This document shows, in pieces, positions 8,750 through 32,358 of a stretch of 64,000 bases of DNA. The notes below the pieces were generated by a model. The model was not told where the DNA came from and did not search any database. It was given only the letters and a program-made list of their open reading frames with translations. Source of the DNA: Phenylobacterium sp. (GTDB lineage Bacteria > Pseudomonadota > Alphaproteobacteria > Caulobacterales > Caulobacteraceae); contig NZ_JAUXSP010000018.1 of NCBI RefSeq assembly GCF_030679875.1, positions 121,199 through 185,198 on the forward strand, read 5' to 3'. The first letter of the stretch is position 1. Every line of letters starts with the position of its first letter. Made by a program: the position numbers and the translations under genes.

Positions 8750-8792
8750 AGACTACCGGCCCAGGATCTGAATGCTCAGACGAGCTGGCCGC

Positions 8793-12634: not shown

Positions 12635-12666
12635 AGCCCAGCGACCGCAAGGCGGAGCGACAGCAG

Positions 12667-12709
12667 CGGCGCGTCGGTCGAGAGACTGACGCGCCGTTCC
12701 TCTTTTTCC
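12667..12709 (+). terminator. Rho-independent terminator after the TonB receptor
   Basis: A 13-bp stem with one G-U pair (CGGCGCGTCGGTC / GACTGACGCGCCG) closes a GAGA tetraloop and is followed by TTCCTCTTTTT. It begins 33 bases after the stop codon and is an excellent intrinsic terminator. Confidence 0.9.
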
Positions 12710-12820
12710 GGGACGCGCGGCGGGGCGTGGCTGTAACCAGGACAGGCGGGTCGACGAAGACCTGAAGTGGTCGGCCAAGCTCGTCGGTCGCCGCGCCGAA
12801 GGTCCGCCCCCGAGGAATAT

Positions 12821-14955: not shown

Positions 14956-16048
14956 GGCCTCGGGCGCGGGCGACGAATCCCAGGTCGAGACGGCGCTTCA
15001 CCCAGAGCGCGCCACGACTCCGCCACCAGAGTTTGTCCCGGAGGGCGAGCCCGGTCTCGTCGCCGAGATCCATGATCGATAGCCATCGGCCTTGGGGGCG
15101 ATAGGGGCGCAGCGGCCCGGCCTGGGCCCTGGCGATCAGGTTGGCCAGCAGGATCGGCGCGGCTCGCACCCCGAACACGCCAACCGGCGGGCGCGGCGCC
15201 TTGGCGATCACCGCGCAGTCGCCGGCCGCGAAGACCGCCGGGTGATCGAGAGCCTGGAGTTCTGGGTTGAGCAGCAGGCGTCCCGCCGCATCCATCGCCA
15301 ACCCCAGGCCCCCTGTCAGGGAAGGCGCGGTGAGGCCTCCGGCGAGGACCAGCATCTCGCACTCCAGGTCCCGGCCATCGGCCAGACGGCAATGGCCATC
15401 CCCGCGCCCTGTGACCTCGCCCTGAAGGATCACGATGCCCCGGCCCCGCAGCCGCGGCAGCAGGTCAGCGACCGCAGCCCGAGGCGCCCAGGTCGCAGGA
15501 TGGGGCGAGACAAGGGTGAGCCTCGCAACCTGCCCATGGCGCTCGCAAAGCCCCGCGATGGCCGCAGAGACCTCAAAACCCGTTTGGCCGCCCCCCGCCA
15601 CCACGACGTGGGGGGAACGCCGCTCGCGCAGCAACACCGCCTCGAGCTGTTTCCGCAGATCAAACAGTCGGGTCAGCGGCTTGACCGGCCATACCCCCGG
15701 CGCGGCGGCCAGGTTGAGCGGGTCACGCACCACTGAGCCGATATTGAAGGAGATCAAGTCGAAGGCCTGATCTTCCCCCTCGGCCGTGCGCGTGACCTGG
15801 GCGGCCAGATCGACGGCGACGATGTTCGTCGGCAGATGCCTCACACCCTGCTGCGCCGCCAGGGCCGCGACATCGATCATGGCGGCGGACTCAGGCAGGG
15901 CGCCGGAGAGAACGCCTGTGGCCAGACCCGAATAGTGAAACGCCGCCGGCGCGATCAGCGTCACGTCCAGGTCCGCCGCGCGCAGGGATGCGGCATGGGC
16001 CAGCAGATGCAGGTGGGCATGGCCAGCCCCCGCCAGGACCAGCCTCAT
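14939..16048 (-). CDS. FAD oxidoreductase of the SelD N-terminal-domain type
   Basis: A 369-residue FAD/NAD(P)-binding protein related to type II NADH dehydrogenases and sulfide:quinone reductases. The N-terminus 'MRLVLAGAGHAHLHLL' has the Gly-x-Gly-His-x-His pattern typical of the oxidoreductase domain found fused to SelD in some bacteria (TIGR03169-type, recalled, not searched). A second Rossmann motif 'VVVAGGGQTGFEVSAAI' and a C-terminal FAD motif 'PAVFAAGDCAVI' are visible. No SelD kinase domain follows, so this is a stand-alone form. It converges with the mercuric-reductase-like gene, overlapping it by 17 bases. Its presence beside the two selenodomain-associated transferases is the main contextual clue. 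Confidence 0.82.
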   Translation of the reverse strand: MRLVLAGAGHAHLHLLAHAASLRAADLDVTLIAPAAFHYSGLATGVLSGALPESAAMIDVAALAAQQGVRHLPTNIVAVDLAAQVTRTAEGEDQAFDLISFNIGSVVRDPLNLAAAPGVWPVKPLTRLFDLRKQLEAVLLRERRSPHVVVAGGGQTGFEVSAAIAGLCERHGQVARLTLVSPHPATWAPRAAVADLLPRLRGRGIVILQGEVTGRGDGHCRLADGRDLECEMLVLAGGLTAPSLTGGLGLAMDAAGRLLLNPELQALDHPAVFAAGDCAVIAKAPRPPVGVFGVRAAPILLANLIARAQAGPLRPYRPQGRWLSIMDLGDETGLALRDKLWWRSRGALWVKRRLDLGFVARARGLRLAA

Positions 16049-16073
16049 GGTCTACTGCGCCATCCGCAAGGCC

Positions 16074-16886
16074 TCAGTCGGCCGCCAGCCGCGAAGACAG
16101 CGCCGTCATGTAAGCCTCAATCCGCGCGGCGTTGGCGCCCAAGTCGCCAAGACCAACGCGCGAGGTGGACCGCATGTCGATCATGCTGGAACCCTCAGAA
16201 CCAGCGGCGCGGACCCGCACGGCGACGTCATCCTTGAACCCGAACCAGAAGGTCTCGGCCGTGGCCTCGATCTGTCCGGTCGTGGCGTCGGCCGAAACCA
16301 CGGTCCAACCCTGGGCGCGCACCTCGGCTTCCGCCGCAGCGAAAGCCTCGGCAGGCGCGACGTCCGTGGCGAGGGACTTCAGCGCGGGATAGGCCGCCTG
16401 TCCGACCTGCCCCAGGGACTTGCCCGCCAGAGGCGCAAAACGTGGCCCCTGATAGGCTGGCAGGCTGGTGAGAGGCGCTGCGACATCGGCGACTGGATTG
16501 GCCGCCTCGGCGTCCCGCAGGGTCATCAAAGCCGGGGAATAGATGGGGGGATCCTCGATATTGGTCGTGACGTCGTGGATCGGCGGGATGTCCGCGGACT
16601 GGGCGCGCACATAGGCGAGATAGCCAAAGCCTGCGGCGGGGATCAGCAGGGCGACCAGCGCCGCGCGCCAGCCCGTTCGCGGGGCGCGGGCCAGGGTCGC
16701 CACCAGGGCGACAAGGGCGACAACCAGAGCGGCGATCAGCAGGCGCGGGCCCCACTGGATGATCAGCACCCCCAGCCCAACGCGCCAGGACCAAAGGTCA
16801 AACTTCACCCCCAGGGCGGCGCCCATGAACCAGAACGGGAGCAATAGCGACAGAACCAGGGCGAAACGGGCGATCAGCAGCCGCAT
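16074..16886 (-). CDS. DUF1499 membrane protein
   Basis: A 270-residue protein with three N-terminal hydrophobic helices and a periplasmic or cytoplasmic DUF1499 domain (about residues 125-265). Characteristic pieces are 'DIPPIHDVTTNIEDPP', 'AEAEVRAQGWTVVSADATTG' and the C-terminal 'RVGLGDLGANAARIEAYM'. Function is unknown. It lies 25 bases upstream of the FAD oxidoreductase gene in the same direction, so the two probably form an operon divergent from the radical SAM genes. Confidence 0.9.
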   Translation of the reverse strand: MRLLIARFALVLSLLLPFWFMGAALGVKFDLWSWRVGLGVLIIQWGPRLLIAALVVALVALVATLARAPRTGWRAALVALLIPAAGFGYLAYVRAQSADIPPIHDVTTNIEDPPIYSPALMTLRDAEAANPVADVAAPLTSLPAYQGPRFAPLAGKSLGQVGQAAYPALKSLATDVAPAEAFAAAEAEVRAQGWTVVSADATTGQIEATAETFWFGFKDDVAVRVRAAGSEGSSMIDMRSTSRVGLGDLGANAARIEAYMTALSSRLAAD

Positions 16887-17051
16887 GGCGTCAACCTTCT
16901 GCGAAATTCAGCAAGCGTGACCGTTTCACGATCCAGCCGGTCAGGATAGGGGGCAGAGCTTGAAACCAATCGGCGCCGGTGGCCGAATAGGCTTAGGAAG
17001 GCGGCTCGCGTCCCTGGGGCCCCCGCCGGCTGCCGCCTGCGCAAGGATACG

Positions 17052-18020
17052 ATGACCCAGACCGCCCTGTCTCCGTTCGCCACCCACCGCGGGCCCGCCA
17101 CTCCAGGACGCTTCTCCGATCCCTTGATCACGGCGGACGGCTCAGCGCGGGCGCGGGTCGAGTTGAAGGCGCTGGAGACCCTCTGGTTCAATACTGGCAG
17201 CCTTTGCAATATCGCCTGCCTGAACTGCTATATCGAAAGCTCTCCGACCAATGACGCCCTGGTCTATCTGACGGCGGCCGACTGCGCGGCCTATCTCGCC
17301 CAAATCGCTGAAGGCGATCTTCCCACCCGGGAGATCGGCTTCACCGGCGGCGAGCCGTTCATGAACCCCGACATTCTGACCATGCTCGACCTGGCGCTGG
17401 CCGGCGGACATCGGGTGCTGGTCCTGACCAACGCCATGCGGCCGATGATGCGCTGGGGCGACCGACTTGGGCGGCTGATCAATGACCATGGGGACCAGCT
17501 GACCTTTCGCGTCAGCCTCGATCACCACACACAAGCCGCCCATGACGCCGAGCGGGGCGAGGGAGCCTGGGACAAGGCTTGGGCGGGCCTGGACTGGCTT
17601 GGTGGCGAGGGCGCCAGGATCGCCATCGCCGGACGGCGTATGGCCGAGGAGTCAGAAGTGCAGGCGCGGATGGCCTTCGCCCAGTTGTTTGAAACCAGAA
17701 GCCTTGCGGTGGACGCCATAAATCCCGGCGCCCTGGTGCTGTTTCCCGAAATGGAGCCAGGCGCAGATGTGCCTGAGATCACAGAGGCTTGCTGGGGCAT
17801 TCTCAACCGGTCGCCAACTGAGATGATGTGCGCCACCAGCCGCATGGTGGTGCGCCGACGTGGCGCCGCTGGGCCGGTCGTCGTGGCCTGTACGCTGACC
17901 CCCTATGATCCTCAGTTCGAGCTGGCGGCGACCCTGGAAGGCGCGGCGACCGCCGTCAGCCTCAATCACCCCTTCTGCGCGCAGTTCTGCGTGCTGGGCG
18001 GGGCCAGTTGCAGCGCTTAG
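17052..18020 (+). CDS. Radical SAM protein of the arsenosugar/selenodomain-type locus
   Basis: A 322-residue radical SAM enzyme. The 4Fe-4S/SAM motif is CX3CX2C in 'GSLCNIACLNCY', followed by the SAM-binding 'GFTGGEPFMNP'. It would generate a 5'-deoxyadenosyl radical in the cytoplasm. The C-terminus is unusually Cys-rich ('PFCAQFCVLGGASCSA'), suggesting an auxiliary cluster or substrate-binding thiols. It is not clearly ArsS, whose N-terminal motif differs. It overlaps the next glycosyltransferase gene by 13 bases, so its product is probably handed to the two transferases. The substrate is unknown. Confidence 0.88.
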   Translation: MTQTALSPFATHRGPATPGRFSDPLITADGSARARVELKALETLWFNTGSLCNIACLNCYIESSPTNDALVYLTAADCAAYLAQIAEGDLPTREIGFTGGEPFMNPDILTMLDLALAGGHRVLVLTNAMRPMMRWGDRLGRLINDHGDQLTFRVSLDHHTQAAHDAERGEGAWDKAWAGLDWLGGEGARIAIAGRRMAEESEVQARMAFAQLFETRSLAVDAINPGALVLFPEMEPGADVPEITEACWGILNRSPTEMMCATSRMVVRRRGAAGPVVVACTLTPYDPQFELAATLEGAATAVSLNHPFCAQFCVLGGASCSA

Positions 18021-18703
18021 CGGCCCAGGTCGCCCCGCGGCTGTCGGTCATTATTCCCACCTTGAACGCCGCAGATGGCCTGGCCACAACCCTGGCGGCC
18101 CTGCCGTCGGATGCCGAGGTGATCGTGGTTGATGGGGGCTCATCCGACGCCACCCTCCAGGTGGCCGCAGCCGCCGGGGCGCAGGTGCTGCGCGCGCCCG
18201 CCGGGCGAGGCGGCCAGCTGGCGGCGGGCGTGGTTCAGGCCCGGGCCCCGTGGATGCTGTTCCTGCATGCCGACACTCGATTGGACGCCAAGGCCTGGGC
18301 GGCTCTCGAGGCCTTTGTCGCAGATGGCGCCAACCAGGACACCGCGGCGGCCTTTGGCTTTCGCCTCGACACCAGGGCCTGGCAGGCGCGGCTGCTGGAG
18401 CTGGGCGTTCGCCTGCGCGTGGCGCTGTTGGCCCTGCCCTATGGAGACCAGGGCATGCTGATCCACCGTCAGCTCTATGAGCGTGTCGGAGGCTATCGCC
18501 CCCTGCCCCTGATGGAGGATGTGGATCTGGTCCAAAGGCTCGGCCGCAGGCGCCTCCGTATTCTGCCCGGCGTCGCCCTGACCTCGGCGGTCCGTTGGCG
18601 CAGACGCGGCTGGATGCGCCAGAGCCTGCTCAACCTGCACTGCCTGGCCCTCTACCTGACCGGCGCCCCGCCGGCGCGTATCGCCCAGATCTATGGCCGC
18701 TGA
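18008..18703 (+). CDS. TIGR04283-type glycosyltransferase (rSAM/selenodomain transferase 2)
   Basis: A 231-residue GT-A fold family 2 glycosyltransferase. The nucleotide-sugar site is seen in 'LSVIIPTLNAADGL' and 'EVIVVDGGSSDATL', and the metal-binding DxD equivalent in 'MLFLHADTRLD'. A downstream 'GDQGMLIHR' and 'LPLMEDVDLVQRL' match the family pattern. Proteins of this type are annotated as arsenosugar biosynthesis glycosyltransferases because they occur with arsM/arsS. The TTG start overlaps the radical SAM stop, and the gene overlaps the next transferase by 11 bases. This indicates tight translational coupling of three steps. Confidence 0.9.
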   Translation: MQRLAAQVAPRLSVIIPTLNAADGLATTLAALPSDAEVIVVDGGSSDATLQVAAAAGAQVLRAPAGRGGQLAAGVVQARAPWMLFLHADTRLDAKAWAALEAFVADGANQDTAAAFGFRLDTRAWQARLLELGVRLRVALLALPYGDQGMLIHRQLYERVGGYRPLPLMEDVDLVQRLGRRRLRILPGVALTSAVRWRRRGWMRQSLLNLHCLALYLTGAPPARIAQIYGR

Positions 18704-19295
18704 CCGCAGGCGTCGCCACCTGGTGATCTTCGCTCGCCACCCTCGATTCGGCGTGGGCAAGCGGCGCCTGGCGGCCGATGTCGGCGACCTGGCCGCCCTC
18801 CGGTTTGGCCGGTACGCCCTGTCACGCCTTTGGCGAGAACTCGGCGCGGATCCCCGCTGGACCCTGTGGGTCGCCACCTCACCCGACCGGCCAAACGACT
18901 GGGTAAGGACAGGACGGGCCTGCCCACAGGGGCGCGGAGATCTGGGGGCCAGGCTCAAGCATGTGGTGCGCCGATTGCCGCCGGGGCCCGTCGTGATCAT
19001 CGGCGCCGATACCCCGGGGGTCAGCCGAACCGACGTAGCGGCCGCCTTCGCCGCCCTGGGCTCCAGGCCCGCGGTTCTCGGTCCCGCCCTCGACGGGGGC
19101 TACTGGCTGATCGGCCTTCGCCGGCGCCCCCGGGAGCCCCTACCCTTTGACGGCGTCCGCTGGTCCACCGCCGACACCTTGGCCGACACGGTCCGCGCCC
19201 TAGGCGACGTACAGATCGCCCAGCTCAAGGTTCGCGAGGATGTCGATGATGGCGAGGCCCTGCGCCGGGCGCTCACCCGGCGGCGGCTGGGCTGA
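18693..19295 (+). CDS. TIGR04282/DUF2064-type transferase (rSAM/selenodomain transferase 1)
   Basis: A 200-residue GT-A-like transferase of the DUF2064 family. The N-terminus 'VIFARHPRFGVGKRRLA' is the family's Arg/Lys-rich nucleotide site. 'GRGDLGARLKHV', 'VIIGADTPGV' (Asp for metal) and 'LGPALDGGYWLIGL' are the other hallmark blocks. In databases such proteins are listed as arsenosugar biosynthesis glycosyltransferases and nearly always travel with the TIGR04283 type. It is the last gene of the rightward trio and converges with the phosphorylase gene, overlapping by 23 bases. Confidence 0.9.
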   Translation: MAADRRRRHLVIFARHPRFGVGKRRLAADVGDLAALRFGRYALSRLWRELGADPRWTLWVATSPDRPNDWVRTGRACPQGRGDLGARLKHVVRRLPPGPVVIIGADTPGVSRTDVAAAFAALGSRPAVLGPALDGGYWLIGLRRRPREPLPFDGVRWSTADTLADTVRALGDVQIAQLKVREDVDDGEALRRALTRRRLG

Positions 19296-20154
19296 ACTTG
19301 CGGGGACAGATTGCGGCGAGTTTTTCGGCGAGCTCAGGATCCCACCGCGCCGGGTCGGTGATCACCGCATAGTCGAGGCCGGTATCAATCGGCGAGGGCG
19401 CGCGGGTCTGTGGCAAGGCCCTGGCGAGGTGGGCGATCATGCTGCGCGCGGTGTCGGCGTTGCTCTGCAGCACCTCCAGCACATTGGACACTTCCACATG
19501 GGCGGTGGCTTCGCGCCAGCAGTCGTAGTCGGTGACCATGCAGACATTGGCATAGGGCAGCTCCGCTTCCCGGGCCAGTCGGGCCTCTGGCATGGCGGTC
19601 ATGCCAATCACCGAGCATCCCCACGAGCGATAAAGGTGGCTTTCGGCCCTGGTGGAGAACTGGGGGCCTTCCATGGCCAGATAGGTGCCGCCCTCGACCG
19701 TCGGCGCTCCGGCCGCCCGGGCCGCGTCCGCCGCCGCAGCGGAGAGGCGCGGGCAGACTGGATCAGCCATGGAGACATGGGCCACAAGGCCTTCGCCGAA
19801 GAAGGAGGCCGGCCGCGAGACCGTGCGGTCGATATACTGATCCACAAGGACGAAGGTCCCCGGCGGCAGCTCTTCGCGAAGTGAGCCCACCGCCGATACC
19901 GACAGGATGTCGGTGCACCCGGCCCGCTTCAGGACATCGATATTGGCCCGGGCGTTGAGCGCGCCTGGCGAAATCCTGTGCCCCCGACCATGCCGCGGCA
20001 GAAAGACCAGCCGGACATCGTCGAGTTCGCCCGTGACCAGCTCATCGGACGGCGCCCCCCAGGGGGACTCGATCGACAGGGTGCTGCGGTTACGCAGACC
20101 GTCCAGCTCATAGAGACCAGAGCCCCCGATGATCCCCAAGGTCCACTGTTTCAT
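19273..20154 (-). CDS. S-methyl-5'-thioadenosine / 5'-deoxyadenosine phosphorylase
   Basis: A 293-residue phosphorylase that splits MTA (and often 5'-deoxyadenosine) into adenine and a 5-substituted ribose-1-phosphate. I use the ATG at 20154 ('MKQWTLGIIGGSGLY'), which begins the domain exactly. The phosphate site 'FLPRHGRGH', substrate loop 'AMEGPQFSTRAES' and the adenine-selective 'TDYDCWRE' are all present. The Asp pair of the last motif favours adenine over hypoxanthine. In this locus it may recycle the radical SAM by-product or remove adenine from an adenosyl-conjugated intermediate. General methionine salvage is the alternative role. Confidence 0.93.
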   Translation of the reverse strand: MKQWTLGIIGGSGLYELDGLRNRSTLSIESPWGAPSDELVTGELDDVRLVFLPRHGRGHRISPGALNARANIDVLKRAGCTDILSVSAVGSLREELPPGTFVLVDQYIDRTVSRPASFFGEGLVAHVSMADPVCPRLSAAAADAARAAGAPTVEGGTYLAMEGPQFSTRAESHLYRSWGCSVIGMTAMPEARLAREAELPYANVCMVTDYDCWREATAHVEVSNVLEVLQSNADTARSMIAHLARALPQTRAPSPIDTGLDYAVITDPARWDPELAEKLAAICPRKFSPAAAG

Positions 20155-20333
20155 TCGCCCCCGCGCGCACCGCTCCTGAACCCCTGGCCTAGCCAAGCCC
20201 GCCCGCCTTGTCGACCACCGGGCCTGACGACGCTCGGGATATGAAGGTGACGACGATTTTTCGGAACGCTCTGCGCCCAAGCTTGTTTTGCAAGATCAAG
20301 CTCGGTTCAGACTAAACGGGGGGTGCGTCTCGC

Positions 20334-21092
20334 ATGACCGGACCAGACGCCCTTGGGCTCTCATACTGCGGGCCAGCGCCACAACCGCTTGAGGTCTGGG
20401 CAAGCTGGAATCTTGACCCCGTCCTTCTCGCCGCCTTCGCGCTTGCGACCAGCCTCTTTATGTGGCGCGCAAGGGCGACGCCCCACCAGAAAGGCGCGTT
20501 TTTCGGGGCCCAGGGCGTACTGCTCGTGGCCTTCGTCTCCCCTCTGTGCGCCCTGAGCGTGGCGCTGTTTTCCGCCCGCATCGGCCATCACATGCTGATG
20601 GTGGCGGTGGCCGCGCCGCTGCTGGCCTACGCCCTGCCCCGGGCCGTGCCTGGCCGCTGGCTGACCGCAGCGGGCCTCCTGCACATGGTCATCCTGTGGA
20701 TGTGGCACGCGCCCCCGGCCTACGGCTGGGCGGTGACCGGGGTCGCCAGCTACTGGCTCATGGAGATCACCCTGCTGGCCAGCGCTACAGTCTTCTGGAG
20801 CGCAGCACTCGCCCGCCGTGCCGAGGCGCCGGCGGTGATCCTGGCCCTCATCCTCACCATGGCGCAGATGGGACTTCTGGCGGCGCTGATCACCTTCGCC
20901 CAGCAGCCCCTGTTTTCCGCCCATTTCGCGACAACCCAGGCCTTCGGGCTGACCCCGTTGGAAGACCAGCAACTGGCAGGACTGATCATGTGGGCGCCGG
21001 GCGCCCTGCCCTACTTCGCGGCGGTCATCTGGCTGGCCGTGCGCTGGCTCAAGGGTCTTGAGAATGACGAGGCGATGGCGTGGCGTGGCTGA
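20334..21092 (+). CDS. ctaG: Cytochrome c oxidase assembly protein, CtaG_Cox (caa3) family
   Basis: A 252-residue integral membrane protein with about six or seven helices. The family pattern includes 'FSARIGHHMLMVAVAAPLLA' and 'HMVILWMWHAPPAYGW', with conserved His residues likely to bind copper. Caa3-type CtaG proteins help insert copper into the oxidase. It is unrelated to the Cox11-type CtaG. The gene heads a rightward block with a CopD-like gene and the oxidase subunits, and overlaps the next gene by 13 bases. Confidence 0.92.
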   Translation: MTGPDALGLSYCGPAPQPLEVWASWNLDPVLLAAFALATSLFMWRARATPHQKGAFFGAQGVLLVAFVSPLCALSVALFSARIGHHMLMVAVAAPLLAYALPRAVPGRWLTAAGLLHMVILWMWHAPPAYGWAVTGVASYWLMEITLLASATVFWSAALARRAEAPAVILALILTMAQMGLLAALITFAQQPLFSAHFATTQAFGLTPLEDQQLAGLIMWAPGALPYFAAVIWLAVRWLKGLENDEAMAWRG

Positions 21093-21571
21093 AATTCCTG
21101 CATATCGCCGCCCTGCTGATCTGGTGCGCCGGCTTGGTTTATCTCCCGGGCCTGCTCCTGGCCCACAGGAACATGACCAACCGGGAGGATTTCATCCGGA
21201 TCCGCAACGCCAGTCGGTTCAGCTACAACGCCATCACCTCGCCCGCGGCCTTCGTCGCCATTGGGGCCGGGACGGCTCTGCTGCTGCTGGCGCCGGGCGT
21301 TCTGCAGGGCTGGATGTTCGTCAAGCTGGCCCTGGTGGGGGCCCTGGTCATGGCCCATGTACAGTACGGCTTCGTCCTGTCGGCTCTGTCAGAGCTTGGC
21401 TCCAAGCCGCCGCGCCTTCGGCTGCTGGCCGTCTGGATCCTGGTCTTCGTGGCGATGACGGCCATCCTCTGGCTGGTGCTGGAAAAGCCCTTCCTGGGAT
21501 CGAGCCGGCTGCCGGCCTGGCTGCTGGAGCCCGGCGGCCTTCAGTCCTTGCTGCCTTCGACGCCGATCTGA
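21080..21571 (+). CDS. CopD/HemJ-like membrane protein
   Basis: A 163-residue protein with four hydrophobic helices. The N-terminal 'MAWLKFLHIAALLIWCAGL' has the His in helix 1 shared by CopD-like and HemJ-like proteins, and 'FSYNAITSPAAFVAIGAG' follows. These proteins bind copper or haem in the membrane. The start is a GTG overlapping ctaG. Position between the oxidase assembly gene and the oxidase genes suggests a role in copper or haem supply to the oxidase. The tail is C-terminal to the last helix and overlaps the opposite-strand DUF2231 gene by 31 bases. Confidence 0.85.
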   Translation: MAWLKFLHIAALLIWCAGLVYLPGLLLAHRNMTNREDFIRIRNASRFSYNAITSPAAFVAIGAGTALLLLAPGVLQGWMFVKLALVGALVMAHVQYGFVLSALSELGSKPPRLRLLAVWILVFVAMTAILWLVLEKPFLGSSRLPAWLLEPGGLQSLLPSTPI

Positions 21572-22050
21572 TGCTCGAACACCAGCTTGCCCCCATGCCA
21601 GCCGGCCAGGCCGACGAAGATCAGGCCCAGGACCGACAGGAACAGGCCCCAGGGCAGGACCGCGGTCTCGCGGTCAAAGAGCCGCAGTCCCCAATTGGCG
21701 CCGATAATGCTCAGCAGCATCATCGCGGCGACCGCATGGCTCCAGGGCTCGGCGCTGCGCCGGATGCCCCGGACCAGAAGCAGCTCGGCCGTACCGCTGG
21801 CCGCAGCCGCCACCCCCATGGCGAAGCCCCAGCCGCTGGTCCACAGACCCACCCGGGCGAAGAAGGGGTCGGCGCTCCACCAGTAAAAGAGGTCTGCCCC
21901 CAGGGTGGCGCACACCAGGGCGATCGGGAAGGTCACCAGCATCACGTGAACCGGATGGCCCGCGACCTGGATGCTCGAGGCGACATTGCCCGAATGAGGA
22001 TCCTCAGACCGATCCTGCGCGAGGGGGGGATGCTCTTGCGTCTGCGACAT
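21541..22050 (-). CDS. DUF2231 membrane protein, antisense within the oxidase block
   Basis: A 169-residue protein with four hydrophobic helices. The signature 'GHPVHVMLVTFPIALVCATL' with paired His is typical of DUF2231, a family often seen near respiratory genes and possibly haem-binding. It is coded against the direction of its neighbours, lying between the CopD-like gene and coxB. Its annotated 5' end overlaps the coxB 5' end by about 21 bases in divergent orientation, so one of the two starts may lie further inside. The C-terminus overlaps the CopD-like gene. Confidence 0.85.
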   Translation of the reverse strand: MSQTQEHPPLAQDRSEDPHSGNVASSIQVAGHPVHVMLVTFPIALVCATLGADLFYWWSADPFFARVGLWTSGWGFAMGVAAAASGTAELLLVRGIRRSAEPWSHAVAAMMLLSIIGANWGLRLFDRETAVLPWGLFLSVLGLIFVGLAGWHGGKLVFEHQIGVEGSKD

Positions 22051-22743
22051 GGGAGCCCAACGCGGCTGAGCCTTAATAGCTCCGCCGTAGCCGCCGGCCT
22101 TTTGCTCAGCGGTTGCGATACGCCGCTCTCGACCCTGGCCCCGGCGGGAGAGGCGGCCAGCACGATTGCGACCCTGTGGTGGGTGATGCTGACCGCAGCG
22201 GTTCTGATCTTTGTCGGCGTGGTCGGCGCCGCCCTCCTCCCCCTGATGACCCGGCGGCTCAAAGCCCCCTCAACCCGGGCCATGCTCATCGGGGGCGGTC
22301 TGGCCTTTCCCGGTGTCGTGCTCGTGGCGTTGCTGATCGCGGCCCTGGTCATTGGTGACCGGCTGAGCCCGCGCGGAGAGCCCGACGTGCTGCGCATTGA
22401 GGCCGAAGCCCACCAGTGGGGTTGGACATTCCGCTATCCCGACGCGCCGGGCCAGGCCGCCACAGCCGGCGTGATGCACGTGCCCGTGGGCCGTCCCTTT
22501 GAGGTGTATGTGACCAGCCGCGATGTGATCCACAGCTTCTGGGCCCCCAGGCTAGGCGGCAAGATCGACGCCATCCCCGGCCAGGTGAACGTCATCCGCC
22601 TGCAGGCTGACGCGCCGGGCGCCTATCGCGGCCAGTGCGCCGAATTCTGTGGCCGCGGTCACGCCATGATGGATTTCGTCCTCCAGGCCCACAGCGCCGA
22701 TGACTATCGCGCCTGGCAGTCCAGGCAAGGGGCCGGCCAATGA
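22030..22743 (+). CDS. coxB: Cytochrome c oxidase subunit II
   Basis: The long track ORF is a read-through. I place the start at the ATG at 22030, right after GAGGGGGG, giving 237 residues. A lipoprotein-type signal with lipobox 'LLSGC' is followed by two membrane helices and a periplasmic cupredoxin domain. The Cu-A site is complete in 'GQCAEFCGRGHAMM', with the upstream His in 'SRDVIHSFW', so this is a cytochrome c rather than quinol oxidase. No C-terminal haem c domain is present. The gene overlaps coxA by 4 bases. The start is somewhat uncertain because of the divergent overlap with the DUF2231 gene. Confidence 0.93.
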   Translation: MLLRLRHGSPTRLSLNSSAVAAGLLLSGCDTPLSTLAPAGEAASTIATLWWVMLTAAVLIFVGVVGAALLPLMTRRLKAPSTRAMLIGGGLAFPGVVLVALLIAALVIGDRLSPRGEPDVLRIEAEAHQWGWTFRYPDAPGQAATAGVMHVPVGRPFEVYVTSRDVIHSFWAPRLGGKIDAIPGQVNVIRLQADAPGAYRGQCAEFCGRGHAMMDFVLQAHSADDYRAWQSRQGAGQ

Positions 22744-25262
22744 CGGATCAAACGCACAGCCCCGCCACACCGCTGTCGACCATCGGCCGCCACAAGGCGC
22801 TGGAGCGCCTGTGGGCGACGCCGCCGGGCTGGGGGGCCCTGTCGGCGGTGAACCACTCCACCATCGGACTCCGGTTCATCATCACCGCCTTCGTCTTCTT
22901 CCTGATCGGCGGAGTCCTGGCCATGCTGATCAGGGCTCAGCTTGCGGGTCCTGAGACCGACTTCCTGGACGCGGCCGCCTACGCCCAGGTCTTCACCATG
23001 CACGGCACGGTGATGATGTTCCTGTTTGCCATCCCGGCCATCGAGGGGCTGGCGCTGTACATGCTGCCCAAGCTGATGGGGGCCAGGGACCTGGCCTTCC
23101 CGCGGCTCAGCGCCTTCGGCTACTGGTGCTACCTGTTTGGGGGATCGATCCTGATCCTGGCCCTGCTGGCCGGGGTCGCGCCGGACAGCGGCTGGTTCAT
23201 GTACACGCCGCTGTCGTCCAAACCCTACTCGCCGGGGATCAATTCCGACGTCTGGCTGATCGGCGTCACCTTTGTTGAGGTCTCGGCGGTCTGCGCGGCG
23301 GTGGAGTTCATGACCACCGTGCTGAAGATCCGCACCGGCGGCATGGCCCTGCACCGGATGCCGATCATGGTCTGGTACCTGTGGGTCACCGCGGCGATGA
23401 TGCTCTTCGGCTTCCCGCCCCTGATCCTGGGCAGCGTGCTTCTGGAGCTGGAGCGAGCCTTCGACTGGCCCTTCTTCGACCCCACCCGTGGAGGAAGTCC
23501 GCTGCTCTGGCAGCACCTCTTCTGGCTGTTCGGCCACCCGGAGGTCTACATCATCTTCCTGCCCGGGGCCGGCATCATCTCCACCATCCTGCCGGTGTTC
23601 ACGGGTCAGAAGTTGGTGGGCTACGCCTGGATCGTGGTGGCCCTGATCGCGCTGGGCTTCATCAGCTTTGGCATCTGGGCCCACCACATGTTCGCGACCG
23701 GGATACCGCACCTGTCGCTGGCCTTCTTCTCGGCGGCCAGCACCCTGGTGGTGATCCCCACGGCGGTGCAGATCTTCGCCTGGCTGGCCACCCTGCTCAG
23801 CGGACGCCCGCGCATCACCCTGTCGATGCTCTACTTCTACGGCTTCCTGTCGACCTTTGTGATCGGCGGCCTGACTGGGGTGATGGTCGCCGTGGTGCCC
23901 TTCGACTGGCAGGCGCACGACACCCACTTCATCGTCGCCCACCTGCACTATGTGCTGATGGGTGGCTTCGTCTTCCCCGTGCTGGCCGGCATCTATTACT
24001 GGCTGCCGCACTTCTCGGGACGCAAGCATCTCGAGGGCCTTGGCCGAACCGCCTTCACCCTGATCATGCTGGGGTTCAACGCCTCATTCCTGCCCATGCA
24101 TCTGACCGGCCTTTTGGGCATGCCGCGCCGGGTGTTCACCTATGGCGGCGACATGGGATGGGACCTGCTGAACCTGATCAGCTCCGTCGCCGGCTTCGTG
24201 CTGGCCATCGGCTTCGCCCTGGTGGTGGTCGATGTCATCCAAGTGGTCAGGTTCGGCCGCCGCGCCCGTCGCAATCCCTGGGGCGCCAGCACCCTGGAAT
24301 GGGGCATGCCCACCCCGCCCCCGTCCTACAACATCGGCTCACAGCCCCAGGTCACCAGCCGCGACCCGCTCGAGGATGATCCGGGCCTTCCCGCCGCCCT
24401 GGCCAGGGGCGAGGGCTATCTGGGCCAACCCCGCAATGGCTGGCGCGAGACGCTGGGCGTCCACATGCTGAGCGGCGAGCCCGACCAGGTGGTGCTGCTG
24501 CCTGGGCCGACCCTGATCCCGCTCTGGACCGCCATCGCCACAGGCCTGTTCTTCCTCAGCTTCCTGTTCAAGCTCTACCCGCTCTCCGGCCTCGCCTTCG
24601 TCCTGATCGTAATCTGCGGCTGGCGATGGATGTGGGCCTCGGGCCTGCCCGCCGACGCCGAGCCGGTGGATATCGGCCTGGGACGAAGGGCGCCGCTTCA
24701 TCCCACCGCCGCCGATCCTCCGAGCCTCTGGGGGATGGTCTTCACCCTGATGGCCAACGGCGTCTTCTTCGGCGCCCTGGTGTTCGGCTATCTGTTCCTC
24801 TGGGTGGTGGCGCCCAACTGGCCGCCGCCGAGCCTGCTGGCGAAAGAGGCTGTGACACCTCTGTTGATCCTGGCGGGTCTGGGCGTCGGGCTCACGGCGA
24901 TCTGGCGCGCGAGCCACGCCAACCGCGAGGGTCTGGTTGAGGCCAGCCGCACCTGGCTGCTGGTGTCGGCGGCGGCGGGCGCCGTCACCTGCGGCGCCGC
25001 CCTGGCCGTCCCGCTGTTCACCGCTCCGCCCGCCGACAGCCACGCCTACGCGGCGGCCGTGACCTTTATCAGCGGCTATGTCGCCTTCCACGGCTTGATC
25101 GCGGCGATCCTCAGCGCCTACGCCTGGGCGCGGTCCAAGGCCGGTTGGATATCGGCTCGGCGCGGGGTGGAGTTCGCCGCCCTGCGCCTTTGGTGGCTCT
25201 ATCTCAGCGCGGTCGGGCTTATCAGCCTCGCCCTGCTGCACGGCCCGGTGTGGTTCGCATGA
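22740..25262 (+). CDS. ctaD: Cytochrome c oxidase subunit I fused to subunit III
   Basis: An 840-residue fusion. Residues 1 to about 530 are subunit I with the haem a ligand region 'MHGTVMMFLF', the Cu-B His and cross-linked Tyr in 'GHPEVYIIFLP', 'WAHHMF', and both haem ligands in 'HDTHFIVAHLHYVL'. A linker leads to a C-terminal membrane domain (about residues 590-840) that resembles subunit III and has further helices. Such I+III fusions are known in caa3-like oxidases. It pumps protons while reducing oxygen in the inner membrane. The gene overlaps coxB upstream and a small membrane protein gene downstream by 4 bases each. Confidence 0.95.
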   Translation: MTDQTHSPATPLSTIGRHKALERLWATPPGWGALSAVNHSTIGLRFIITAFVFFLIGGVLAMLIRAQLAGPETDFLDAAAYAQVFTMHGTVMMFLFAIPAIEGLALYMLPKLMGARDLAFPRLSAFGYWCYLFGGSILILALLAGVAPDSGWFMYTPLSSKPYSPGINSDVWLIGVTFVEVSAVCAAVEFMTTVLKIRTGGMALHRMPIMVWYLWVTAAMMLFGFPPLILGSVLLELERAFDWPFFDPTRGGSPLLWQHLFWLFGHPEVYIIFLPGAGIISTILPVFTGQKLVGYAWIVVALIALGFISFGIWAHHMFATGIPHLSLAFFSAASTLVVIPTAVQIFAWLATLLSGRPRITLSMLYFYGFLSTFVIGGLTGVMVAVVPFDWQAHDTHFIVAHLHYVLMGGFVFPVLAGIYYWLPHFSGRKHLEGLGRTAFTLIMLGFNASFLPMHLTGLLGMPRRVFTYGGDMGWDLLNLISSVAGFVLAIGFALVVVDVIQVVRFGRRARRNPWGASTLEWGMPTPPPSYNIGSQPQVTSRDPLEDDPGLPAALARGEGYLGQPRNGWRETLGVHMLSGEPDQVVLLPGPTLIPLWTAIATGLFFLSFLFKLYPLSGLAFVLIVICGWRWMWASGLPADAEPVDIGLGRRAPLHPTAADPPSLWGMVFTLMANGVFFGALVFGYLFLWVVAPNWPPPSLLAKEAVTPLLILAGLGVGLTAIWRASHANREGLVEASRTWLLVSAAAGAVTCGAALAVPLFTAPPADSHAYAAAVTFISGYVAFHGLIAAILSAYAWARSKAGWISARRGVEFAALRLWWLYLSAVGLISLALLHGPVWFA

Positions 25263-25615
25263 GCCTCCGCCTCCGCCTCCGCCTCGGCGCCTTTGGCGAC
25301 CTGCTGTGGCTGGTGGGCGCCTTTGTCCTCTGGAGCCTGGCCTTTGTCGTCCTCTATGGGGTGCATGGCGCGGCCTGTGCGGGCGGTTGGGCGAGCCCCA
25401 CCGAGCCCTGGCCGCTGCGGCTGACCCTGATCGGGCTGTGGCTGGTCATGACCGTCGTTTCGGCGGCCTACGTCCTGTGGGTCTGGCGGCGGCCGGCCGC
25501 AGGCGACGGGACCGACGGCTTCCTGCGATACGCCACCCTCGCCGTCGCAGGCGTCGGCGCGGTTTCGACCGCCTGGCTGGGACTTCCGTTATTCCTGGTG
25601 CGGGTCTGCGCCTGA
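25259..25615 (+). CDS. Small membrane protein of the oxidase operon
   Basis: A 118-residue protein with three predicted helices, starting at the ATG that overlaps the ctaD stop (ATGA). The longer track ORF is not needed. 'FVVLYGVHGAACAGGWA' in helix 1 and 'VMTVVSAAYVLWVWRRP' in helix 2 are visible. No family is recognised. Tight coupling to the oxidase gene suggests an accessory subunit or assembly factor, possibly the functional equivalent of a small subunit IV. This is an inference. Confidence 0.8.
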   Translation: MSLRLRLRLGAFGDLLWLVGAFVLWSLAFVVLYGVHGAACAGGWASPTEPWPLRLTLIGLWLVMTVVSAAYVLWVWRRPAAGDGTDGFLRYATLAVAGVGAVSTAWLGLPLFLVRVCA

Positions 25616-25927
25616 AGCTGGCCCGCGACTTCAGGCCCGGACTATTCCCACTCGATTGTTCGGGTATGCACAACCCCTTTGATTCTGCGGGACAAAAAAT
25701 ATTCTCATGCGAAAATACCGTCACGCCAGCCAGCAAAAAGTTATGCTTCTGAGATTCGTATAATAATTAGGCGTTGTTCCTAGAATGGATCTTTCGAGAT
25801 GTATCGTCTCCAATCGGACGGAAAACGTAATCCCTTGCACCGAGTTGCGCATACGGGGGTTCATTTCAAAACACCGTCAATGCTGAAAACGTAGGCTGAT
25901 TGCTGATATTCAAGGTGGCCTGCGCGT
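25616..25927. other. AT-richer intergenic stretch at the core/accessory boundary
   Basis: After the oxidase operon the base composition falls abruptly, with A/T-rich pieces such as 'aaaaaatattctcatgcgaaaa'-type sequence near 25,690. No ORF with coding character is present. The 18-bp guaA-like site lies in it. The change marks the start of the IS-rich part of the window. Confidence 0.55.
25642..25659 (-). other. Putative att site: copy of a guaA 3' end
   Basis: Read on the minus strand, ACAATCGAGTGGGAATAG encodes Thr-Ile-Glu-Trp-Glu-stop, the characteristic end of GMP synthase GuaA. No other guaA sequence is nearby. The 3' end of guaA is a known integration target of genomic islands, and displaced copies mark an island's far end. 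The orientation would put the island to the right, with guaA beyond the window. An 18-base chance match cannot be excluded. Confidence 0.5.
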
Positions 25928-25980: not shown

Positions 25981-26263
25981 GGATTACGCCGTCGATGAGC
26001 CGTAAGGGCGACTGCTGGGACAACGCCCCAATGGAGAGCTTCTTCCCCACCCTCAAGACCGAACGGGTCCATCATCGGGTCTATGCCACGCGCGACCAGC
26101 CCGCCGGGATCTGTTCCACTACATCGAGGGCTTCTAACAATCCCCGACGCCTGCACTCAGCCCTGGGCTACATCAGCCCCAGCCGCCGCCGAGCGCAGAG
26201 CCGCCTAACCCCGTCCACTACTTCGGCGGAAGATCAGTCCACCAAAACGGGGGAGGATCACCT
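25981..26263 (+). mobile_element. IS3-family remnant (transposase C-terminus)
   Basis: The fragment encodes the C-terminal part of an IS3-type OrfB transposase. 'GITPSMSRKGDCWDNAPMESFF' (catalytic Glu included, split here for brevity) leads to 'RRLHSALGYISP'. One base is lost near 26,099 and one gained near 26,135, so about 35 bases are read in the wrong frame. 'CCACCAAAACGGGGGAGGATCA' near 26,240-26,262 looks like its right terminal repeat. The N-terminal two thirds of the element are missing. It is dead. Confidence 0.8.
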
Positions 26264-26516: not shown

Positions 26517-28136
26517 ATGTCACCCTTGACCCTTTCGCCCAACGACTATCGTCGTCTCGCTAAGGTGATCCACACCTTAGCCCCTACAGCCGCGCGGCCG
26601 GTCTTGGTGCGGCTGGGTCTGCTCCGGGGCGCGGCTTCCGACGAGGCGAACGAGGGCTCGGCATATGAGGCCTTCGTTGCGGCACTTGAGGCCCTAGGTC
26701 CTACATTCGTGAAGCTAGGCCAGATCATGGCGACACGATCCGATCTGCTTCCGCCAGAGCTGACCGAGCGGCTCGGCCGGCTTCACGACGACGTGGCTCC
26801 AGTGCCCTTCGACCATTTGCGCGAACAGCTGACGATCGATCTGGGCGCGCCGCCGGAAGAGCTCTTCGCCGAATTTTCGACGACGCCAATTGCGGCTGCG
26901 TCCATTGCCCAGGTCTACGCCGCGCGGCTCATGACCGGTGAAGATGTCGTTCTCAAGGTTCGCAGGCCGGGGATTGAGGCGGTCATGCGCGCTGATTTGC
27001 GGCTACTGTTGGCCGCTGCCCGCGTCATCGAGCGTCGCGCCCCGGCACTGCGTCGACATCAGCCTGTGCGTGTCGTGACGGAGCTCAGCGAAGCCCTTCT
27101 CGAGGAGATCGATTTTCGGATCGAGGCTCGCAATCAAGCGGAGGTCCGCAGACGCGCAACCGTCTTCCATGTTCCGCTCGTTCATGAGCGATTTACCACA
27201 GAAAGGACCATGGTCAGCGCACGCGTCCGTGGCCGCAGTCCTAACGCCGCGTTCCGCAACGAAGAGCCTGCCATGGCGCGCGCCTTGGCGCCCGATGCGG
27301 CGAGGGGGCTGCTGGGGATGATCCTGCTGGACGGGGTGTTCCACGCGGACCCTCATCCAGGAAATATTCTGGTGACTCCGGATGGTCGTCTGGCGCTGTT
27401 GGACTTCGGCTCCGTCGGGCGGCTCTCGGCGAAAAGGCGAGAGCAGGTCCTCGTGGTCCTCGGCTCCCTCGTGGATGCCGACGTAGCGGCGGTCTCTGAT
27501 GTGCTGATGGAATGGGCTGGCCGCTCGGGACCCCCGCCGCCCGGCCTTGAACAAGGTGTCGAGCGATTCTTCCTGCGTTACGCCGCGGATTCCGGGCGAC
27601 CGATCCGGCTTGCGGAGGCGATCACCGAATTCATCTCCATCGCCCGAGAAAACGCACTGACGTTGCCGCCGGACCTGCTGCTGCTCATGCGCGCTCTGGG
27701 CATCGCCGAAGGCTTGGCGAGGACGCTCGATCCCGACCTCGATGTCGTCGCCGCTATCGCGCCAGTGGTTCTCCGGGCTTTCGCATCTCGGTTTGCGCCG
27801 AAAGCGCTCGCCACCCGCGCCTTCCGGACGTTCAAGGAACTAGATCAGATCCTCGCCATCGGGCCAGAAGCGATCCGGCGCGGTATCGGGCGCATCAGCC
27901 GTGAGGGCATTGTCATCCAGGTCTCAAGTTCAGACCTGGCCGAGTTGCCGCGAGCGGTCAGACGGGCCGCCGATACCCTGTCGCTCGGGATCGTGGTCGC
28001 GGCCCTTATCGTCGCTGCCGCCGTCGTCATCGTCGCGAAGGACGATCAGGCCGCCGCGGTCGCTCGGATCGCCATCGTCATCCTGTCAGGCGTGGGCCTG
28101 GCCGCCTTCGTGAGTCGCCTGTTCCGGCGGGATTGA
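26517..28136 (+). CDS. ABC1/AarF/UbiB-family atypical kinase
   Basis: A 539-residue protein. The ATG at 26517 has a CGAGG site upstream. Family motifs are 'FVKLGQIMATRSDLLPPEL' (KxGQ region), 'TTPIAAASIAQVYAARL' (Ala-rich loop replacing the P-loop), 'VVLKVRRPGI' (Lys), 'FHADPHPGNILV' and 'LLDFGSVGRL'. Two C-terminal membrane helices follow. UbiB-type proteins support ubiquinone synthesis or lipid homeostasis. This copy lies among mobile-element debris next to an Hsp20 gene, which suggests a stress-related accessory paralogue rather than the core ubiB. It converges with the Hsp20 gene with a 51-base overlap. Confidence 0.92.
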   Translation: MSPLTLSPNDYRRLAKVIHTLAPTAARPVLVRLGLLRGAASDEANEGSAYEAFVAALEALGPTFVKLGQIMATRSDLLPPELTERLGRLHDDVAPVPFDHLREQLTIDLGAPPEELFAEFSTTPIAAASIAQVYAARLMTGEDVVLKVRRPGIEAVMRADLRLLLAAARVIERRAPALRRHQPVRVVTELSEALLEEIDFRIEARNQAEVRRRATVFHVPLVHERFTTERTMVSARVRGRSPNAAFRNEEPAMARALAPDAARGLLGMILLDGVFHADPHPGNILVTPDGRLALLDFGSVGRLSAKRREQVLVVLGSLVDADVAAVSDVLMEWAGRSGPPPPGLEQGVERFFLRYAADSGRPIRLAEAITEFISIARENALTLPPDLLLLMRALGIAEGLARTLDPDLDVVAAIAPVVLRAFASRFAPKALATRAFRTFKELDQILAIGPEAIRRGIGRISREGIVIQVSSSDLAELPRAVRRAADTLSLGIVVAALIVAAAVVIVAKDDQAAAVARIAIVILSGVGLAAFVSRLFRRD

Positions 28137-28757: not shown

Positions 28758-29221
28758 TCAGGCGTCGGGTGGGCCATGTGTCCCGGCGCCATTCATGAGC
28801 ACGGTCGGGCACTTGTCGCCGATCGCGCTGTGGGGACGATGTTCGTTGTAGTCCCTACGCCAAGCCTCGCATTTTGATCAGGCGTCGTCGAGGGACATGA
28901 ACCAGGCGGTGTTCAAGCATTCGGCCCGGACCTTGCCGTTGAAGGACTCCGCAAAGGCGTTGTCCGTCGGCTTGCCAGGGCGGCTGAAGTCCAGGATGAC
29001 GCCCCGCTGGTAGGCCCAGAGATCAAGGTCGCGGGAGACAAATTCGGGGCCATTGTCGACGCGGATGACCCGTGGATAGCCGACCGCTTTGCCGGCCAGT
29101 TCGAGCGTCTGGACGACGTCGCAGGCCTTGTAGGCAAAGCGGGGATCCAGCGCCGGCGAACACCGACTGAAGGTGTCTATTATCGCCAGGATGCGTATCT
29201 TACGCCCGTCGAAGAGCTGGT
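28758..29221 (-). pseudogene. IS3-family transposase fragment (copy A)
   Basis: This is the C-terminal DDE part of an IS3 OrfB-like transposase: '[18 protein letters not shown]', '[14 protein letters not shown]' and '[11 protein letters not shown]' supply the later catalytic Asp and Glu. Compared with copy B, a CGA codon has become TGA at 28,878-28,880, cutting off the last ~40 residues. The N-terminal part is absent because it joins another IS remnant at 29,221. Confidence 0.88.
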
Positions 29222-29737
29222 GTGCGCCGTCGACAACTTCACCCGCGAGGCCCTGGCGCTGATCGTGGACACCTCGATCGGCGGCCATCGCATGGCACGC
29301 TGCCTGATCGCCCGGCATGGAATGCCACCCACCATCGTCAGCAACAACGGCACGGAAATGACAAGCCGTGCGATGTTGGAATGGACCAACCGCACCGGGA
29401 CCGGCTGGCACTACATCGCGCCGAGCAAACCACAGCAGAATGGCTTCGTGGAGAGCTTCAACGGCAAGCTGCACGACGAGGGCCTGAACGAGAAGGTCTT
29501 CGCGCACCCAGCGAACGCCCGGGCCGTAATCGAGCGCTGGCGGCGCGATTACAACAAATCTGCGGCCCCACTCAGCGCATAGCGGCCCAATGCCGGAAGC
29601 AGTGCGGCTGAACCCCGCGGCCGGTCGGCTGCGCAACCTCAAAGGTTATGGCGCCCGGCCGCCACCGCCAGCGCTGCAGATCAACTATCAAACCCCTGGG
29701 CTCCCACAACGATCGAGGGACCGGAGGGGGCAGGTCA
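29222..29737 (+). pseudogene. Second IS3-family transposase fragment, opposite orientation
   Basis: The sequence encodes '[20 protein letters not shown]', '[12 protein letters not shown]' and '[13 protein letters not shown]', the DDE core of a different IS3-group transposase (the usual SDNGTE reads SNNGTE, so a catalytic Asp is lost). A frameshift near 29,560 ends the frame early. The original tail ('RPHSA', then 'AVRLNPAAGRLRNLKGYG') continues in another frame up to the terminal repeat. It is inactive. Confidence 0.82.
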
Positions 29738-29814: not shown

Positions 29815-32358
29815 TTAGAACCGGTACTGGAATTCTATCCCATAGGTCCGAGGAAAGTTCGGCTTCAATGTGGTACGCTGGATTCCGCTGGCCGAGGGGG
29901 CTCCGGTTCGGAAGTCCTGATAGGCCAACTCATCAAAGGCGTTCTTGACGTAGCCGATCACCGTGTAGCGATCGTCGGCGTCCTTCCAAAGCGCCCGGAA
30001 GTCGACGACTTCGTTCGATGGCGAGCGGAAGCCCGGCTGAGCAAAAACGACGGCCTGTTGCTCGTCGGTGAAGGTGTAGGTGGCCCCAAGTACGAGATCG
30101 CCCTCAGCCAACTCGACTGTATAATTCAGTCCTAGGTTGAGTTTGTTCTCCGGAGTTATGGGAAGCCTGTTCCCAACGAGGGTCTGGAGCCTGCTTCCGT
30201 CCGGCAACACGACGCCCGTAGGTCGCGCGCCCGCCTGCAGAGCCTTCGGGTCGGCTGTATCGACGAAGCAGCAGCCGCTCTTAATCTCGGTATTGAGGTA
30301 CGAATAGCTCGCGAAAATCTGAAGATGATCGATCGGAGCCCACTGGGCCTCCATCTCAAGGCCCCAACTCACAGCGTCCAGATTCACGAACTGACTGCCC
30401 GTTAAGCCCGCCGCGGGGTCAAGAACCACGGTCAGCGGCGCCTGAAAACCCTGATAGTCCGCGTAGAACAGCGCAGAATTCAGTTGGAAGCGCCGCCCCA
30501 CATTTTTCTTCAGCCCGAGCTCGAAGTTGTCAACATATTCGGGATCAGCATAGGGGATCGGAGCGAGGCCGCTCGAGGCCTGCCAACCACCCGACTTATA
30601 GCCGCGGCTGTAACGGGCGTAGGCGTTGGTGTCGCTGTCCGGCTGCCATTGCAGACCCAAGGTCCCGGTCCAGGCGTCGTAGTCGCCCGACAGGTCACGC
30701 GTCAGACCACCGCCTGAGAGCTCACGTACATTGGCGTACAACGGGTTGGCCAGGCAGGACGCGATGGTTGGGCCGCCGCATATGGCAAAGGTTGTCAAAT
30801 CCACCGCGATCCCTTGTCCGACGGCGGCTGGTATCCCCGCGGCGGCCAAGATTGTTGTCGTGGTGTTGGTGCGCGACACGTAGCGAGCCGAGTCTGTACC
30901 CGACTTCTCATCGACCGTGTACCGGATGCCACCCGTAAACGTGATGGTATCGGTGATATCATAGTCGACCTGAAGAAAGGCCGCGTAAGAATCCACCTCA
31001 AGCGTACCGTCTACGAAGAGATAGTTCCCCATCGGGTTCGGTGCCGCCGGGCCACTGGTCGCCAGATTGATCGGGTTCTGAACGGCCGGATCGTTAAGGA
31101 CCCGCTGGCCCTGGGGTTGCGCGTAGGTTTGATGATACTGGTACAGACCGGCGATCCAGCGCAGTGGCCCGCCCGTGTTCGATGACAGGTTGATCTCGTT
31201 GGAGTACCATTTTTGGTCCTCGCGGTAGAAGAACCTCTGGTCTGGCGACACGCCCGTAGCGGTGTAGGCGCCGAAAGGCGTCGCGGTCGGCACGCTGAAT
31301 AGGCCGGTGCGCGATGAACGATCCTCGTCCCCAGCCGTGTCGTAGAGATAGGATTGGTAGCCGGCCAGATACTTGAGGGTCATGCCGCCAAGATCCCAGG
31401 TAAGGTCTAAGTGCAATCGCTCATGATTACTGAGCTTACCTTCACTCGTCTGGTTGGTGCTGATCTTGTAGGGGTCGGTCATCGCCGGATTAGTTCCTGC
31501 GAAGCCGAAGGTCGGATTGTAGTAGAGGCCAGCATTGCCGAGACCGGTCGGAGACGTGGTGTCGTAGCGGCTCGTGATCGACTCGTGGACGTTGCCAACG
31601 CCGAAGCTGTCATCCCAGTCGAATTTCGTATAGCGCAGGCGGGCCGTGATGTTCTCGCCAAGATCGGCTTCCAGCTGGGCCTCGACTATGTACCGTTTAA
31701 CAGCGCTGGAATCGCCGGCAGGCCCGAGGTTCTCGAAGAAGCCTTCCTCTCGGCGCTCCAGAGAGCCCCCGAGAAGGAAGCGTAGGCCATCCGTGATCGG
31801 TCCACGAACCAAGGCGTCGGTTCGCCAGGTGCCGTAGTTCCCAAGAACGGCACGGACCTCACCGTTGAAATCCTCCGTTGGACGCTTGGCGATGATGTTC
31901 AGCGCCCCGCCGATGGAATTACGTCCGTACAGCGTGCCTTGCGGTCCACGCAGAATCTCCGTGCGTTCGATAAACAGTGACGGCGTGGCTGCATCAGCCA
32001 TGGAGTTTGAGAATATTCCGTCGGAGTACAGCGCTACGGAAGGATCGGTTCCGATAGCATTGGTCAGGCGACCAAAGCCTCGGATCGAGAGGCGGTCGTT
32101 GTTGGTATAAGTGACGCTCGGCGATACACGCGCCAAATCCTCGACGTTGGCTACCCCAAGCACGTCGCGCCGCTCACTTGTATAGGCCGTCACGGCCACG
32201 GGCACATCCTGAAGGCGCTGATCGCGCCTTTCAGCCGTCACCACCAGCTCTTCAATGGTGAAGCCGGTGTCTTGCGCCCAACCAGGCGAGGCCGCAGCCA
32301 GAGCGAGCGCGGATGCGCCGCTCGCGAAGGCGAATCGTAGATTCTTGCAATTTTTCAT
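29815..32358 (-). CDS. TonB-dependent outer-membrane receptor
   Basis: An 847-residue receptor. It has a signal peptide ending at 'GWAQ', a TonB box-like 'IEELVVTAERRDQRLQDVPV' and a plug with 'RTEILRGPQGTLYGRNSIGG'. A long beta-barrel ends in 'TYGIEFQYRF' with the terminal Phe. This subtype (EELVVTAxRR, LQDVPVAV) is common in sphingomonads and Caulobacterales and often serves uptake of hydrophobic or aromatic compounds rather than siderophores. A GGGGGG ribosome-binding site lies 8 bases upstream, and a 16-bp palindrome lies about 45 bases upstream. It is bordered by an IS3 remnant on one side and the truncated acyl-AMP ligase on the other. Confidence 0.94.
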   Translation of the reverse strand: MKNCKNLRFAFASGASALALAAASPGWAQDTGFTIEELVVTAERRDQRLQDVPVAVTAYTSERRDVLGVANVEDLARVSPSVTYTNNDRLSIRGFGRLTNAIGTDPSVALYSDGIFSNSMADAATPSLFIERTEILRGPQGTLYGRNSIGGALNIIAKRPTEDFNGEVRAVLGNYGTWRTDALVRGPITDGLRFLLGGSLERREEGFFENLGPAGDSSAVKRYIVEAQLEADLGENITARLRYTKFDWDDSFGVGNVHESITSRYDTTSPTGLGNAGLYYNPTFGFAGTNPAMTDPYKISTNQTSEGKLSNHERLHLDLTWDLGGMTLKYLAGYQSYLYDTAGDEDRSSRTGLFSVPTATPFGAYTATGVSPDQRFFYREDQKWYSNEINLSSNTGGPLRWIAGLYQYHQTYAQPQGQRVLNDPAVQNPINLATSGPAAPNPMGNYLFVDGTLEVDSYAAFLQVDYDITDTITFTGGIRYTVDEKSGTDSARYVSRTNTTTTILAAAGIPAAVGQGIAVDLTTFAICGGPTIASCLANPLYANVRELSGGGLTRDLSGDYDAWTGTLGLQWQPDSDTNAYARYSRGYKSGGWQASSGLAPIPYADPEYVDNFELGLKKNVGRRFQLNSALFYADYQGFQAPLTVVLDPAAGLTGSQFVNLDAVSWGLEMEAQWAPIDHLQIFASYSYLNTEIKSGCCFVDTADPKALQAGARPTGVVLPDGSRLQTLVGNRLPITPENKLNLGLNYTVELAEGDLVLGATYTFTDEQQAVVFAQPGFRSPSNEVVDFRALWKDADDRYTVIGYVKNAFDELAYQDFRTGAPSASGIQRTTLKPNFPRTYGIEFQYRF

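Follow-up and report, generated by a model that had tools for sequence, protein, structure and literature searches.

The window analyzed here is a whole stretch of 64,000 nt (C7:121199–185198) whose right end coincides with the end of contig C7. Its leftmost part (476–6793, minus strand) carries genes for an EngA-type GTPase, a BamB-like protein and panB (4429–5232) together with their neighbours, and represents ancestral chromosome that follows guaA in relatives. A clade-specific chromosomal block (7095–25615, plus strand) comes next and ends in a COX1 cluster; between the genomes that carry the element described below, it is approximately 80–83% identical. Twenty-six bp past the last gene of this cluster lies an 18-bp motif (25642–25659), which reads CTATTCCCACTCGATTGT on the plus strand and ACAATCGAGTGGGAATAG on the minus strand (25659 to 25642), encoding T-I-E-W-E-stop. 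The sequence agrees with the initial annotation, which had read these 18 bases as the terminal motif of GuaA; no guaA body is present next to them.

To the right of the motif, the remaining approximately 38 kb (25660–64000), extending to the contig end, form the distal part of an inserted element. IS3-like transposase remnants without a single intact frame lie beside the motif (approximately 25990–26215, plus strand, 25995–26215 as delimited), as read from the sequence alone. Three transposase genes follow further inside: an rve-type IS transposase (28878–29642, minus strand), partly ~96% identical to a stretch near 53017–53528, a DDE_3 transposase (45432–46469, plus strand), and a second rve-type IS transposase (52776–53480, plus strand). 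Together with the IS3-like fragments, they mark the right as the island side. The cargo comprises genes for an ABC1/UbiB-like kinase (26520–28136, plus strand), a TonB-dependent receptor (29815–32358, minus strand), an acyl-CoA dehydrogenase, a metallo-beta-lactamase-fold hydrolase and an enoyl-CoA hydratase (41556–44621, plus strand), a globin, an esterase, and aldehyde and alcohol dehydrogenases (48152–52148), HlyD and MFS efflux components with TetR and MarR regulators (54606–58682, plus strand), and a cytochrome P450, an FMO-like monooxygenase and an acyl-CoA ligase (59155–63724, minus strand). The cargo is mainly metabolic, interspersed with IS elements, and the protein families suggest a catabolic role. 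Further copies occur elsewhere in the same genome for 47125–51047 (88% identity, C19) and 51072–52184 (81%, C17); the genes of the block 47125–52184 appear to be chromosomal ones that the island acquired from a related species.

Across the 3.5 Mb genome, the exact 18-mer has a single occurrence. A degenerate guaA-end pattern, ACNATHGARTGGGARTRR, has two matches, guaA itself and the copy at 25642–25659, while the reversed-pattern control gave none in this genome or in all 40 relatives. A second weak match at 38577–38594, considered as an internal att site of a tandem island, is coding sequence inside a HIT-domain gene and was dismissed as chance. The only guaA of the genome is located on another contig (C27:3492–5060, minus strand) and ends with ACGATCGAGTGGGAATGA. 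It encodes an intact protein of 522 aa, so truncation of the gene by the insertion was rejected. The genuine 3′ end and the displaced copy have 16 bp in common with one mismatch, the sequence common to both being ACRATCGAGTGGGAAT. This comparison had been proposed as a check, along with a search for a neighbouring integrase outside the window, and both came out as predicted: a tyrosine integrase gene (C27:1942–3198, 418 aa) starts 293 bp after the guaA stop on the same strand.

The C27 integrase is a P4-type tyrosine integrase. It contains arm-binding, central and catalytic domains (Arm-DNA-bind_3, Phage_int_M and Phage_integrase) with the R...HxxR...Y signature, whose segments MVRKSEL, HDLRR and VYNKAEY were aligned with a related integrase, and is followed by a gene for an AlpA regulator (Phage_AlpA, L007:1146–1970). 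Related integrases occupy the same position: of the 79 whose upstream sequence is long enough, 77 start 290–296 bp beyond a guaA end whose stop is TGA or TAA; for the 78th, from Acidiphilium, the guaA end is present with altered last codons, and for the remaining one the contig begins too near the integrase to judge. Integrases 84–88% identical to that of C27 adjoin guaA in Mesorhizobium genomes. In genome G021, an integrase gene beside guaA (L229, 9775–11028) has 100% (rounded) amino-acid identity, yet contains an in-frame TAG.

Comparison of the junctions locates the strand exchange. The interval GAGTGGGA (25646–25653, minus strand) is flanked by polymorphism on either side and matches the published core of guaA-integrating elements (PMC9376610, PMC7775301). 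To its left, the sequence is of island type in attR (ACA, seven of seven genomes) and of chromosome type in attL (ACG/ACC); to its right, it is of chromosome type in attR (TAG; GAG-TAG in G040) and of island type in attL (GAA-TGA). Since the polymorphism switches sides across GAGTGGGA, the exchange took place inside it, and this interval presumably also represents the enzymatic core. The adjoining island-side att arm (25654–25693, minus strand, ...GGTTGTGCATACCCGAACAATC) is invariant in seven genomes over the stretch compared. The motif search, the comparison with the guaA end and the relatives described below leave very little doubt that 25642–25659 represents attR, the junction at which an element site-specifically integrated into the last codons of guaA ends on the side away from its integrase. 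The displaced guaA end had been interpreted from the start as the distal att site of a genomic island, and the matching guaA 3′ end, the integrase and the relatives without the insert all uphold this interpretation.

In the mechanism best supported here, the C27 integrase (C27:1942–3198) used the 3′ end of guaA as attB and recombined it with attP, with strands exchanged inside GAGTGGGA. The element thereby replaced the last bases and the stop codon of guaA (now GAA-TGA) with the protein unchanged, and the original end (GAA-TAG), along with the chromosome that had lain downstream of it, came to lie at the far side of the element. The predicted attP of the excised circle is ...TACCCGAACAATCGAGTGGGAATGATTCAGG..., and the predicted restored attB is ...ATCGAGTGGGAATAGTCCGGG... 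The window copy is the old chromosomal guaA end with its ancestral TAG stop, and the TGA stop of the present guaA comes from the element. This swap leaves TAG in attR, and the element contributes TGA or TAA, as in each of the 77 strict cases; it provides a simple one-site marker by which draft genomes can be screened for guaA sites that are occupied and for orphan distal att sites.

Relatives without the insert were compared, as had been suggested, and the left-hand genes of the window were found downstream of guaA. In G002, a block homologous to window positions 6793–2179 lies in reverse orientation 1.8 kb after guaA; it is also found downstream of guaA in G022 (at 7.3 kb), G020 and G010, and in G030 and G032, which belong to other families, guaA and panB are ~7–9 kb apart. 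Because the panB block follows guaA in relatives, the left side of the window is the old downstream neighbourhood of guaA and the insert lies to the right. At base level, the empty site of G022 shows ...GAATAGggggctagcggcagg at the guaA end with GAATAGggggctagcggcaggttt directly after guaA, and in the occupied G023, with an integrase beside guaA, attR with the GAATAGggggctagcggcaggttt flank is found 82.6 kb from guaA. The second empty/occupied pair, G032/G036, displays the same junction pattern. Base-level empty sites are thus those of these two pairs, and the window's own genome was tested at the level of gene order; no empty site was found from the very same clade. The predicted extension of the island to the right is matched by G041, in which DNA of the window's right end and the integrase next to guaA are on one contig.

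The block ending in the COX1 cluster (7095–25615) is absent between guaA and panB in G002, G022, G010 and G020. It was considered as part of the island and rejected, being located outside attR and only ~80–83% identical between carriers. The block is older than the island and was already in place between guaA and panB when the island arrived; a motif search of the window found no remnant of an older att site at its far end. Extra DNA between the COX cluster and attR is present in G005 (4.2 kb; L070, 6302–10471) and G041 (3.1 kb; L253, 3098–6190), which shows that close relatives, too, vary on the chromosomal side of the site.

The same element is found in further genomes, a set composed of Phenylobacterium sp. 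and Caulobacteraceae MAGs. The attR arm (ggttgtgcatacccga ACA ATC GAG TGG) occurs in G001, G005, G018, G040, G041 and G042, each time followed by differing chromosome; the island-side end is thus exactly common to seven genomes with different chromosomal flanks. From att onward, the two island ends are free of mismatches, with 2841 and 3481 bp compared for G018 and 1932 and 2344 bp for G001, and beside them the flanking chromosome is 80–81% and guaA 92% identical. Longer island stretches of G018 are 99.97% (7.3 kb), 99.95% (12.2 kb) and 99.92% (10.7 kb) identical, that of G040 is 99.98% (15.5 kb) and that of G041 is 96–99.6%, with chromosome flanks of 81–83% in G040–G042; G001 matches most of 25660–55946 at 100% (tool-rounded). 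In three carriers (G001, G018 and G040), the island is therefore 99.9–100% identical over the compared stretches versus 80–83% for the flanking chromosome, and the identity step falls exactly at att.

These observations bear on three simpler explanations. A chance guaA-like 18-mer in an intergenic region is practically ruled out: although the similar 18-mer at 38577, within the HIT gene, really is chance, the exact sequence is unique in the genome, the reversed-pattern controls are empty in 40 genomes, in several species the motif stands exactly where identity rises from ~80% to ~100%, and coincidence is refuted by an att arm that is conserved next to seven chromosomal flanks that all differ. 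A guaA copy left over from an old duplication or decay would agree with a match confined to the 3′ end, but no guaA homology extends past the core, the arm upstream of it consists of invariant island sequence, and the integrase flanks the real guaA; we regard such an origin as equally negligible. The near-identity between species could be a metagenome binning or assembly artefact, given that most carriers are MAGs; this is very unlikely, as both junctions are inside contigs that run into species-specific chromosome in G001, G040, G041 and G042 (guaA 91–92%, COX flank 81–83%), which argues for horizontal spread rather than binning. The spread of the attR-bounded element is recent, and it is likely that one large metabolic-cargo ICE at guaA moved very recently (>99.9% identity) between several Phenylobacterium-like species that differ by ~17–20% in the flanking chromosome, with guaA as a recurrent hotspot in the lineage.

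Physical closure of the element is provided by G041. A single contig (DEWY01000011.1) contains the guaA end at 194237, the integrase, 41 kb of further sequence and then window positions 64000–58088 at 99.4% identity. In the window genome, guaA with the integrase (C27) and the window (C7) are on separate contigs; closure there depends on G041, k-mer overlaps and an IS66 repeat that permits more than one resolution. The missing middle includes C5, 164 bp from the window end according to a G018 contig, C32, which shares a 141-bp end with C5, the IS66 repeat, and C24. The initial 22 kb of C24 (C24:141–22131) match the G041 element collinearly, reaching to just behind the integrase. C10, C15, C18 and C20 were left out owing to uninformative all-against-all end matches, apparently from masked sequence. 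The clearly assigned contigs (C27, C32, C5 and C7) give an element of at least ~58 kb; its size is probably 80–115 kb, with an estimate of ~79 kb by the G041 layout.

Beyond its first 22 kb, C24 encodes a relaxase (best match RlxS, below the cut-off of that model), T4CP, TrbE, TrbL, TrbF, CagX/TrbG, TrbI and RepA. Also on this contig, at approximately 20809–25164 (L318:809–5164), is a gene for a 1451-aa Strawberry-notch-type helicase. The conjugation genes (C24:22131–52398) are absent from the G041 contig, so their assignment to the island is putative. This absence and the ambiguous contig joins around the IS66 repeat would fit a mobilizable or immobile genomic island that is not self-transmissible, with the conjugation genes belonging elsewhere. 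We consider this unlikely, since C24:141–22131 follows the G041 island collinearly, and the contig then goes on into the relaxase, T4CP and Trb genes. Judged from gene content, the element is probably an ICE, of which the window holds the distal ~38 kb; in the window genome it may measure about 115 kb, and the C24 relaxase, coupling protein and Trb system could provide autonomous conjugative transfer. The initial annotation's genomic island thus stands as an inserted element, refined to what is probably a full ICE.

The element belongs to the known guaA-associated kind of ICEs and genomic islands: it has an integrase downstream of guaA, a distal GAGTGGGA repeat, empty sites and AlpA near int. 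The guaA 3′ end, cited at the outset as an established integration site, is published as such for GIsul2 and ICERspD18B, both with the core GAGTGGGA (PMC9376610, PMC7775301). GIsul2 likewise has an alpA gene near int, and the integrase on a plasmid record of A. baumannii ATCC 17978, the strain whose plasmid pAB3 carries GIsul2 (PMC9376610), is 58% identical to that of C27 over 397 aa. In contrast, GIsul2 is 15 kb long as opposed to at least 58 kb, carries CR2-sul2 and arsenic resistance instead of metabolic genes, has alpA in the opposite orientation, and is reported in gammaproteobacteria. ICERspD18B of Rheinheimera, with the direct repeat ACAATNGAGTGGGAATNNTT, shares the insertion in guaA, an int with an AlpA regulator, a T4SS and a relaxase, but is 28.5 kb long, carries resistance cargo, and its transfer was demonstrated experimentally (PMC7775301). 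Mesorhizobium ICEs, like the tripartite ICEs whose integrase targets guaA (PMC8627217), are alphaproteobacterial elements at guaA with an RlxS-type relaxase, whereas their cargo is symbiotic and other. The guaA-associated islands with P4 integrase and AlpA, which PMC7775301 cites from Song et al. 2012, share the hotspot, the integrase class and the 8-bp consensus. Every tested point of the initial annotation is supported, while site, core and integrase type had all been published.

A five-residue motif read by eye has led to a fully bounded mobile element that involves mechanistically no new principle. Nearly identical copies of this element, with metabolic cargo, are documented for several environmental Caulobacteraceae; neither the element nor its spread in this group was found in the literature searched. 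Shorter inserts bounded by guaA-end repeats are also present at guaA in G020 (L089, 1.7 kb), G025 (L231, 3.4 kb) and G009 (L230, 25.8 kb). No close relative of the C27 integrase was seen beside guaA at these three loci, and the inserts may be remnants, or else elements that other integrases have brought to this hotspot.
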